Source of the DNA: an uncultured Mediterranea sp.
GTDB lineage: Bacteria; Bacteroidota; Bacteroidia; Bacteroidales; Bacteroidaceae
NCBI GenBank assembly: GCA_939791845.1
Contig: CALNEX010000005.1
Span: forward strand, 1-34,902
Length of the DNA stretch: 34,902 nucleotides
Direction of reading: 5' to 3'
Shown: piece by piece, positions 16,479 to 21,827 of the stretch
How the letters are laid out: every line of letters begins with the position of its first letter
Position numbering within the stretch: position 1 is the first letter of the stretch
The notes under the pieces: model-generated
Databases searched by the model: none
Told to the model about the DNA's origin: nothing
Seen by the model: only the letters and a program-made list of their open reading frames with translations
Translations under genes and position numbers: made by a program

Positions 16479-16486
16479 TATCTTTG
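16479..16486 (+). promoter_or_regulatory. -7 box TATCTTTG upstream of element copy 1 and aroB
   Basis: TAnnTTTG; the 142-bp repeat begins 11 nt downstream. Confidence 0.6.
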
Positions 16487-16497
16487 CCGCGGGAAAC

Positions 16498-16639
16498 AGG
16501 AATTTAGTTTAGGCGCGGATTACGCGGATTTCACGGATATATTATTTGTGAAACCATTGGCATTCATAATTCTATGATAAAACTTAATCCGTGAAATCCG
16601 TGTAATCCGCGCCTAAAAGACATCGATAAATTATCATTT
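16498..16639 (+). repeat. Inverted-repeat leader element, copy 1 (142 bp)
   Basis: Nearly identical to 20521-20663; left arm 16508-16538 and right arm 16587-16617 form a 31-bp inverted repeat with one mismatch (G-U in RNA) around a 48-nt AT-rich loop. Confidence 0.95.
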
Positions 16640-16650
16640 GACCGACTTAT

Positions 16651-17715
16651 ATGATGAACAAGCAAGAAGTAATCCTTTGCGAGGGCTTGGCAGACAGCCT
16701 GGGGCGTGCCTTTGCCCAATGTCCGCACGACAAGATCTTCGTCCTGACCGATGAACACACCCACCGCCTCTGCCTGCCCCTGCTGGAAGGCGTGGAAGGC
16801 CTGGCAGAGGCCGTGCAGATTGTCATAGGACCGGAAGACGTGCACAAGAATCTGGAGACATTGGCTTCCGTTTGGCTGGAGTTGAGCAACAAGGGTGCCA
16901 CGCGCCGTTCGCTGATGGTGAATTTGGGCGGGGGCATGGTGACCGACTTGGGCGGATTTGCCGCCTCCACTTTCAAGCGGGGCATACCTTATATTAATAT
17001 ACCCACCACGCTGCTGGCCATGGTCGATGCGGCCGTGGGCGGCAAGACGGGCATCAACTTCAACGGGCTGAAGAATGAGGTGGGCGTGTTTGCGCCGGCC
17101 GTCAGCGTGCTCATCGAAACCGAATTCCTGCGCACGCTGGACGACCGGAACTTCTTTTCGGGCTATGCCGAGATGCTGAAGCACGGCCTCATCAGCACGA
17201 CCGGGCACTGGGCCGAGCTGCTGGCTTTCGACACGGATCCTGTCGACTATGCACGGCTGAAGGCGATGGTGGGCCGTTCGGTGCAGGTGAAGGAGAACAT
17301 CGTGCGCGAGGACCCCTTGGAGCGGGGCATCCGCAAGGCGCTGAACCTGGGGCACACCGTGGGCCATGCCTTCGAGAGCCTGGCCTTGGCCGAAGGGCGT
17401 CCCGTGCTGCACGGATATGCTGTGGCGTGGGGCCTGGTGTGCGAACTGTACCTGGCGTGTCTCAAGACGGGTTTCCCGCAAGACAAGATGCGGCAGACCG
17501 TTGGCTTCATCAAGGAGCATTACGGCGTGTTCGCTTTCGACTGCAAGGAATACGAACAACTTTATGCCCTGATGCAGCATGACAAGAAGAACACGGAGGG
17601 TGTCATCAACTTTACCTTGCTGGAAGACATTGGCGGGATTGCCCTCAATCAGACGGCTGACAAGAAAACCATCTTCGAAGCCTTGGACTTCTACCGGGAG
17701 ACAATGGGGGCATAG
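16651..17715 (+). CDS. aroB: 3-dehydroquinate synthase
   Basis: LMVNLGGGMVTDLGGFAASTFKRGIPYINIPTTLLAMVDAAVGGKTGINFNGLKNEVGVFAP, RKALNLGHTVGHAFES. Confidence 0.96.
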   Translation: MMNKQEVILCEGLADSLGRAFAQCPHDKIFVLTDEHTHRLCLPLLEGVEGLAEAVQIVIGPEDVHKNLETLASVWLELSNKGATRRSLMVNLGGGMVTDLGGFAASTFKRGIPYINIPTTLLAMVDAAVGGKTGINFNGLKNEVGVFAPAVSVLIETEFLRTLDDRNFFSGYAEMLKHGLISTTGHWAELLAFDTDPVDYARLKAMVGRSVQVKENIVREDPLERGIRKALNLGHTVGHAFESLALAEGRPVLHGYAVAWGLVCELYLACLKTGFPQDKMRQTVGFIKEHYGVFAFDCKEYEQLYALMQHDKKNTEGVINFTLLEDIGGIALNQTADKKTIFEALDFYRETMGA

Positions 17716-20270: not shown

Positions 20271-20450
20271 TTCCGGGTGTCGGAAGGGAGTAGTTCCGGG
20301 TGTCGGAAGGGAGTAGTTCCGGATGTCGCAACCGGGTGGTTGCGGATGTCGCAACCGGGTGGTTGCGGATGTCGCAACCGGGTGGTTGCGGGTGTCGCAA
20401 CCGGGTAGTTGCGGGTGTCGCAACCGGGTAGTTGCGGGTGTCGCAACCGG
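20271..20450. repeat. 23-bp-period tandem array of seven hairpins
   Basis: Spacer G(G/A)TGT alternates with 18-nt palindromes: CGGAAGGGAGTAGTTCCG (20281, 20304), CGCAACCGGGTGGTTGCG (20327, 20350, 20373), CGCAACCGGGTAGTTGCG (20396, 20419), with half units at both ends. Confidence 0.95.
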
Positions 20451-20500: not shown

Positions 20501-20508
20501 TATCTTTG
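20501..20508 (+). promoter_or_regulatory. -7 box TATCTTTG upstream of element copy 2 and the M24 gene
   Basis: TAnnTTTG; the 143-bp repeat begins 12 nt downstream. Confidence 0.6.
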
Positions 20509-20520
20509 TGCTCGAAAAAT

Positions 20521-20663
20521 AGGAATTTAGTTTAGGCGCGGATTACGCGGATGGACGCGGATATATTATTTGTGAAACCATTGGCATTCATAATTCTATG
20601 ATAAAACTTAATCCGTGAAATCCGTGTAATCCGCGCCTAAAAGACACCGATAAATTATCATTT
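20521..20663 (+). repeat. Inverted-repeat leader element, copy 2 (143 bp)
   Basis: Same sequence as 16498-16639 apart from a short changed stretch in the left arm (GGATGGACGCGGAT versus GGATTTCACGGAT) and one C/T; ends immediately before the ATG at 20664. Confidence 0.95.
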
Positions 20664-21827
20664 ATGTTACAATCCGAACTCAAGCTGCGGCGTGACAAGA
20701 TACGCGCCCTGATGGCGGGACAAAAGATTGATGCCGCCCTCATCACGTGCAATGTGAATCTGATTTATGCGTATGGCCAAGTGGTCAGCGGCTACCTGTA
20801 CCTTCCCTTGGACGGGCCGGCCCGTCTGTTTGTCAAGCGGCCGAACAACCTGAAAGGCGAGCATATCCATCCCATCCGCAAGCCGGAACAACTGCCGGAC
20901 TTGCTGAAGGAAATGGGCCTTCCCTTGCCGGGCCGCCTGATGCTGGAAGGGGATGAATTGCCTTATAATGAATATGCCCGTTTGGCGGCCTGCTTCCCCG
21001 GTGCGGAAGTGCTGCCTTGCGGGACCGCCCTTGTCCGCCGGGCACGCAGTGTGAAGACCGAAATGGAGTTGGAACTGTTCCGCCGTTCGGCAGCGGCCCA
21101 TGCACGGGCATACGGTCGGATACCCTCCGTGTACGTGGAAGGCATGACAGACCGGGCCCTTTCCATTGAAATCGAACGCCTGATGCGTCTGGAAGGCTGC
21201 CTGGGCATCTTCCGCGTCTTTGGGCGGAGCATGGAAATCTTCATGGGAAGCGTGCTGACGGGAGACAATGCCGCTGCGCCCAGCCCTTACGATTTTGCCT
21301 TGGGAGGGGAAGGGATGGATCCGTCCTTGCCGGGCGGTGCCAACGGCACGTTGCTGAAGCCCGGACAAAGCGTGATGGTGGACCTGGGCGGCAATTTCTT
21401 CGGCTATATGTGCGACATGAGCCGGGTCTACTCCATAGGCCGTTTGCCCCGGCAGGCCTATGATGCCCACCAGGTTTGCCTGGAAGTGCAGGAGAAGGTC
21501 GCCTCGATGGCCCGACCGGGCGTGACGGGCGAAGACCTGTACAACGCCGCCCTCGGGGTGGTGACCCGCGCCGGATGGGCGGACCACTTCATGGGCATCG
21601 GGCAGCAGGCCAAGTTCATCGGTCACGGCATCGGCTTGGAAATCAACGAGGCACCGGTGATTGCCCCCCGCATGAAACAGGAATTGGAGCCGGGCATGGT
21701 CTTTGCCCTCGAACCGAAAATCGTGTTGCCGGAAGTAGGCCCCGTGGGCATCGAGAACTCGTGGGCGGTGACCGCCGACGGGTTGGAGAAGCTGACGCAG
21801 GCACCGGAAGAAATCATCGAACTCTGA
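20664..21827 (+). CDS. M24 family metallopeptidase (Xaa-Pro aminopeptidase-like)
   Basis: Creatinase-like N-domain; MVDLGGNFFGYMCDMSRVYSIG, GHGIGLEINEAPVI, LEPGMVFALEPKIVLPEVGPVGIENSWAVT. Confidence 0.9.
   Translation: MLQSELKLRRDKIRALMAGQKIDAALITCNVNLIYAYGQVVSGYLYLPLDGPARLFVKRPNNLKGEHIHPIRKPEQLPDLLKEMGLPLPGRLMLEGDELPYNEYARLAACFPGAEVLPCGTALVRRARSVKTEMELELFRRSAAAHARAYGRIPSVYVEGMTDRALSIEIERLMRLEGCLGIFRVFGRSMEIFMGSVLTGDNAAAPSPYDFALGGEGMDPSLPGGANGTLLKPGQSVMVDLGGNFFGYMCDMSRVYSIGRLPRQAYDAHQVCLEVQEKVASMARPGVTGEDLYNAALGVVTRAGWADHFMGIGQQAKFIGHGIGLEINEAPVIAPRMKQELEPGMVFALEPKIVLPEVGPVGIENSWAVTADGLEKLTQAPEEIIEL

Follow-up and report, generated by a model that had tools for sequence, protein, structure and literature searches.

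A recurrent hairpin before two start codons

The window, by which we mean the whole 34,902-nt stretch of DNA analysed here, raises the question of why a putative aroB gene and a putative M24 peptidase gene are preceded by almost the same long hairpin, and what kind of element this hairpin represents. The relevant features, all on the plus strand, are:

16479-16486, +: -7 box TATCTTTG of the aroB promoter, outside the element; kept 5′ of aroB in most relatives aligned
16494-16639, +: element copy 1 (146 bp), with a core of family K1 and a type A loop; it takes up the leader of putative aroB
16494-16507, +: constant left end of copy 1, AAACAGGAATTTAG (consensus AAATAGGAATTTAG), common to 110 both-ended elements with any core
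16508-16538, +: left arm of the hairpin core of copy 1
16539-16586, +: AT-rich loop of copy 1, type A, 48 nt
16587-16617, +: right arm of the hairpin core of copy 1
16625-16639, +: constant right end of copy 1, GATAAATTATCATTT
16651-17715, +: ORF of putative aroB (3-dehydroquinate synthase; name from the first-pass annotation); orthologs indicate 16654 as the probable true start
20501-20508, +: -7 box TATCTTTG upstream of the M24 gene; two related genomes retain a TTTG box
20517-20663, +: element copy 2 (147 bp; GGATGGACGCGGAT left-arm variant), in the M24 leader
20517-20530, +: constant left end of copy 2, AAATAGGAATTTAG
20531-20552, +: outer left arm of copy 2, 22 nt
20620-20641, +: outer right arm of copy 2, 22 nt
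20649-20663, +: constant right end of copy 2, GATAAATTATCATTT, with ATG immediately after
20664-21827, +: ORF of the putative M24 peptidase gene (name from the first-pass annotation); orthologs share the same start

The near-identical repeat that the first-pass annotation had placed at 16498-16639 and 20521-20663 is confirmed, and the unit proves to be a few bases longer at its left side (16494-16639 and 20517-20663). In copy 1 the two arms of 31 nt are 97% complementary and enclose the 48-nt loop, as had been noticed. The segment 16488-16660 is predicted to fold as RNA with -65.1 kcal/mol (z -8.4), and the predicted stem stops 33 nt 5′ of the ATG, with an AT-rich stretch in between. The stem of copy 2 consists of a 22-bp outer part and only 7 inner pairs, because the patch change from GGATTTCACGGAT to GGATGGACGCGGAT breaks the inner pairing; this patch is not a private mutation and recurs as a left-arm variant in several copies. 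Also borne out were the proximity of the repeat to the start codons (11 nt for aroB, or 14 nt to the second ATG suggested by orthologs, and 0 nt for the M24 gene) and the position of the promoter outside the repeat. The -7 box is present upstream of both copies, but its distance, originally given as 11-12 nt, is 7 and 8 nt when measured to the true left ends.

An Rfam scan of the window returned tRNA only and no family matching the element, and a known RNA family was rejected on this ground. An intrinsic terminator was likewise discarded, as neither strand has a U-run after the stem. Tandem 23-bp GC-rich repeats (TTGCGGGTGTCGCAACCGGGTGG-like; 20320-20450) are also present in the window, in the interval that separates the preceding gene from the M24 promoter.

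Placement between stop and start codons

That the repeat is far beyond chance is evident from the dozens of copies of the same family in the genome of origin (G000, Bacteroides; 1.93 Mb in 190 contigs, 63% complete; a metagenome assembly, as are most of the relatives), from which searches by sequence and by region gathered about 46 full and about 36 partial elements. Since the contigs C3, C21, C38, C40, C95, C151 and C172 begin or end within element copies, the repeat has fragmented the assembly and the true copy number is higher than counted. With neighbours assigned by a hexamer-based gene caller and not by a trained finder, 36 of the 46 full copies are flanked by two co-directional genes and share their orientation, and a same-strand gene is found downstream of 40 copies. 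Typically, 0-25 nt separate the right end from the ATG that follows, and the left end lies at the upstream stop codon or includes it.

Nine or more species contributed 110 both-ended elements, and for 101 of them a gene was called on either side; because part of the sampling of relatives followed element matches, counts per species are biased. In 68 of these 101, no more than 40 nt separate the right end from a start codon on the same strand (median 11-14 nt), compared with 1.8% of random positions and with 4 cases of the mirror arrangement. Co-directional genes flank 79 elements; in 60 of these the upstream stop codon falls between -20 and +10 relative to the left end, and about 44 of the 60 have it wholly or partly within the element. 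The stop types among the 60 include TAA split across the junction (T-AA) in 29 cases, TAG at positions 4-6 in 10 and TAG at positions 12-14 in 2. The left end of K1 elements, AAATAGGAATTTAGTTTAGG, reads TAG in all three frames (positions 4, 12 and 17).

Of the 21 leader copies, 14 have a TAnnTTTG box in the 45 nt preceding the left end, at a distance of 1-23 nt, versus 1 of the 64 operon copies; by chance it would be expected in 0.84% of windows. The regular promoter spacing suspected earlier is hence real in leaders, and the element makes up nearly the whole leader wherever it is located in one. The spacing arises because the element fills the entire stretch from transcription start to ATG. 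The placement rule common to leader and operon copies is the untranslated gap immediately before a start codon.

Constant ends flank changing cores

Each element consists of a constant left end AAATAGGAATTTAG, a palindromic core and a constant right end GATAAATTATCATTT, and both ends are nearly constant over the 110 elements. The left end and the reverse complement of the right end match at 10 of 14 positions (AAATaggAATTTAg / AAATgatAATTTAt), and thus form imperfect inverted repeats; where GAT precedes the left end, as in 24 of 110 copies, the two ends additionally form direct repeats (GATAAAT-N4-ATTTA). Clustering of the cores between these ends, with 72% identity required over 60% of the longer core, yields 13 clusters, a number that depends on the threshold, as looser linkage merges some of them to leave 6 groups. 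Exemplars of all 13 clusters are strongly self-complementary, with z-scores of -4.3 to -13.7 against mononucleotide shuffles. K1-type palindromes are widespread in the genus without these ends, and core and ends are therefore separable modules. The interchangeable hairpin between constant ends, which goes beyond the first-pass annotation, is a more unusual feature than the leader placement that had been singled out there.

Recombination among copies is indicated, as all four combinations are present at 320 of the 666 informative site pairs; the left-arm patch by which the two window copies differ is also found with both loop types. Covariation between the K1 arms did not exceed that of shuffled controls, either by score (0.035 versus 0.034) or by the fraction of paired cells (96.5% versus 96.4%, with 145 of 500 shuffles reaching the observed percentage). 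This result argues against a selected RNA helix of the K1 sequence, which we rejected; it disfavours only a sequence-specific helix and leaves room for a role of hairpins as such.

Exact copies of the left motif are numerous only in a close group of species. Those of the right motif abound more widely, in 30 of 160 genomes of the genus with up to 54 copies, and outside the genus they are essentially absent (three genomes, one copy each); controls with either motif reversed stayed at or near zero. A scan of GTDB genomes located the two-ended form at 25 places, all in uncultured Bacteroides, and most matches belong to the named avian-gut candidates intestinavium, merdigallinarum, pullicola and intestinipullorum.

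Cores are exchanged or missing at orthologous sites

For 15 sites in G000 an orthologous site could be compared between species, with one genome per species. The core is exchanged and both ends are kept at C1:32621, C22:19869, C43:7121, C47:5264, C54:6849, C69:6777 and C7:5063 (G000 coordinates), and likewise at trpF-trpA and in the M24 leader of the window. Where the core differs or has gone, the flanks persist along with the ends.

The trp operon of G000 (contig C47; trpB-E-G-D-C-F-A; L064, L148) carries an element at every non-overlapping gene junction. Between trpG and trpD, a K1 core is present in G000 and G032, an unrelated hairpin with the same ends in G112, and the right end only in G014. 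Between trpF and trpA, K1 in G000 and G032 is replaced in G014 by a different hairpin (GGCACACAGATGAC...) flanked by the same ends, and mainly a left end is found in G112 and G069. The trpD-trpC junction holds an element in G000 and only 13-14 nt in G032, G014, G112 and G069; in G032 and G069 this short gap is a bare right end (GATAAATTATCACTT, GATAAATTATCATCG). The same junction provides the clearest pair of empty and filled sites. There CCGATAAA stands at either side, although what serves as the 'empty' site is in fact a solo right end. No constant target-site duplication is seen in the flanks, and because the flanks disagree a classical terminal-inverted-repeat element with a fixed duplication was set aside as unlikely. 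The operon of G000 is preceded by a short ORF, M-R-H-F-A-N-T-Y-W-W-W, which looks like the leader peptide of a trp attenuator.

The leaders of the window behave similarly. In G112 the M24 leader reads TACCTTTG...AAACAGGATTTAG, followed by an unrelated CAATTGACAATTGAC hairpin and then TTTAAATTATCATTT-ATG, and in G143 it contains a K1 core. Matches in the aroB leader of relatives are weaker, with 2-4 mismatches per end: G112 shows element-like ends around another sequence (a weak match), the core of G069 is very short, and in G032 and G014 the leaders are short and retain a remnant resembling the left end.

Nature of the element

We consider it probable, at roughly 0.62, that the element is a modular intergenic mosaic repeat with an interchangeable core, largely neutral, that resides in the gap before start codons. 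Copy number, placement, polarity, the constant ends, and the exchange or absence of cores at orthologous sites form the observed basis of this reading, and from them we infer that the repeat spread as selfish or commensal DNA. New cores might arrive when copies recombine or undergo gene conversion at their shared ends, or by the action of a transposase in trans, and might be lost by deletion between short repeats in the ends, across the palindrome, to yield single 'solo' ends. The left end would supply stop codons for the upstream gene (for K1 elements in all three frames), and an AT-rich stretch between hairpin and AUG would be maintained by the right end, so that placement before a start codon could be tolerated with neither neighbouring gene damaged. 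Start regions of Bacteroidetes are normally weakly structured from -20 to +20 and have no Shine-Dalgarno sequences (PMC6847099). The window leaders would measure about 160 nt versus approximately 30 nt as is typical of Bacteroides; in B. thetaiotaomicron the median is 32 nt (PMC7366714). We read the window element as a long leader that is probably neutral, or largely so, for both aroB and the M24 gene, and not as a dedicated regulator. Against the mosaic repeat, constant ends of 14-15 bp are short for ordinary homologous recombination, the sites compared show no consistent target-site duplication, and the strong orientation bias could be a sign of selected function.

The first-pass description of a MITE- or REP-like dispersed palindrome was correct, and ordinary MITE families constitute the foremost alternative, albeit an unlikely one. 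Such families would share terminal inverted repeats and be mobilized in trans by the transposase of a single insertion sequence favouring AT-rich gaps before start codons, and an apparent core swap would represent excision, after which another family re-inserted at the hot spot. The imperfect inverted repeats of the ends agree with this, and copy numbers, intergenic placement and species-limited bursts are all MITE-like (cf. PMC10969869). However, the flanks lack the constant target-site duplication, an unsystematic look at the sequences examined met no insertion sequence with the element ends, the polarity relative to genes is unusual for MITEs, and the core families have otherwise no sequence in common.

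Exchange might instead be dedicated, with a recombinase docking on the constant ends in leaders and at operon junctions and swapping hairpins of different strength in one polarity, and thereby re-tuning the expression of neighbouring genes genome-wide; we regard this as rather improbable. Equally doubtful in our view is a portable mRNA leader whose hairpin is kept to control translation or stability of the downstream message by insulation, RNase processing or stabilization. Strict polarity and position before the ATG would suit such a leader, every core exemplar folds far better than its shuffled counterparts, old sites retain some core even though its sequence changes, and hairpins of other MITEs alter mRNA processing (PMC10969869). 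Yet self-complementarity is equally expected from the propagation of palindromes, K1 lacks covariation, and copy 2 has a broken inner stem. Moreover, the recipient genes have no apparent common function, and orthologous genes work without a core (aroB in two relatives, trpD-trpC in four). Finally, the main reading of the first-pass annotation, insertion or retention specific to transcription-start regions, accords with the -7 boxes of leader copies but is very improbable, given that copies in operons exceed those in leaders 64 to 21, that co-directional genes flank 36 of the 46 full elements of G000, and that promoter proximity follows from an element filling the whole leader; as most copies have no promoter, promoter-targeted insertion was rejected.

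Relation to known repeats

Descriptions of intergenic repeats in bacteria usually assign a single sequence family to each element. The element described here reverses this picture, since its two short ends are constant and its hairpin changes, at fixed stop-to-start places and in one polarity. Related species thereby offer natural experiments in which the same gene pair, above all in the trp operon, is separated by different hairpins or by none. Two questions thereby become open to direct tests: what influence structure between cistrons has on expression, in a phylum whose translation starts without the help of Shine-Dalgarno sequences, and by what route such palindromes spread when no transposase is visible.

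Nearest in kind, on our best reading, are the NIMEs of Neisseria and MITEs. NIMEs combine 20-bp dRS3 repeats, which have 6-bp terminal inverted repeats, with families of 30-160 bp RS elements (PMC3898611). The likeness lies in short constant repeats joined to variable, sequence-unrelated intergenic units: in the element, constant short ends flank cores of 13 clusters that are exchanged at orthologous sites, and in NIMEs recombination at the constant repeats has been suggested, a parallel to our element (PMC3898611). In contrast to the arrays of 200-2700 bp formed by NIMEs, the element occurs as single units, its two ends are unlike each other, its cores are long palindromes, its position before the start codon is fixed and polar, and no phage integrase is linked to it. 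Furthermore, its ends AAATAGGAATTTAG and GATAAATTATCATTT do not match the dRS3 sequence ATTCCC(N8)GGGAAT (PMC3898611).

With MITEs the element shares imperfect terminal inverted repeats, and it is short, non-coding and multi-copy, with presence and absence among relatives. As in BrickBuilt and in ERIC and Correia elements, tens of intergenic copies are distributed patchily among relatives (PMC4596501, PMC10969869). BrickBuilt of P. gingivalis is the nearest described element within the same order, Bacteroidales, and also places a changing middle between a constant leader and tail, with nested MITEs (PMC4596501). Its middles, however, are arrays of one 23-nt repeat, whereas those of our element are many unrelated palindromes; BrickBuilt is located 49-591 nt from genes with GAAA/AAAA duplications, and our element 0-25 nt from the start codon with fixed polarity and no duplication seen.

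REP/REPIN sequences mobilized by RAYT proteins are similarly dispersed, intergenic and recurrent palindromes. This system was rejected, as PF01797 (Y1_Tnp) genes are absent from the genome of origin (63% complete) and from most of the element-rich relatives and are present in many species without the motif; there is also no sign that the ends are RAYT signals. Palindromes of the GGATTTCACGGATT type in many Bacteroides species belong to the same core family K1 but lack the constant ends. The open-access literature searched contained no description of the element, and subscription journals were mostly uncovered, so that an earlier description is possible. Within the same open-access scope, text matches to end and core sequences led to unrelated papers only, and publications on Bacteroides with MITE or REP held nothing on the element.

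Variant forms

At one orthologous site (C162:3153 in G000, L219 in G032) the elements have opposite orientations, and that of G032 agrees with the genes. Very long cores of 187-320 nt, composed of nested palindromes of the AATTCTTCATTC and CTCCTTCCGGAAGGAG types, occur in L190-L193 (G037) and L202-L203 (G015); this nesting suggests that a core becomes longer when one palindrome inserts into another. Some K1 cores share the inserted piece CTATTCCTTAGCATAATCAAACGATGTTTTGAGCGAAGCTAAATCCGCG (G000 C47:10645-10831, C1:22017-22201 and C47:2489-2674; L140 in G143; L168 in G032) and are a putative nested or recombinant variant common to several species. A further subset has extra conserved outer flanks, approximately AAGTAGATGTTGATATTTAGTTTATACGAT 5′ of the left end and AATTCTTGCGACTTACTT 3′ of the right end (L199-L201 in G107, L184 in G032, L193 in G037, L203 in G015). 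These elements, which often lie away from a same-strand start codon, are possibly a longer form of the element.
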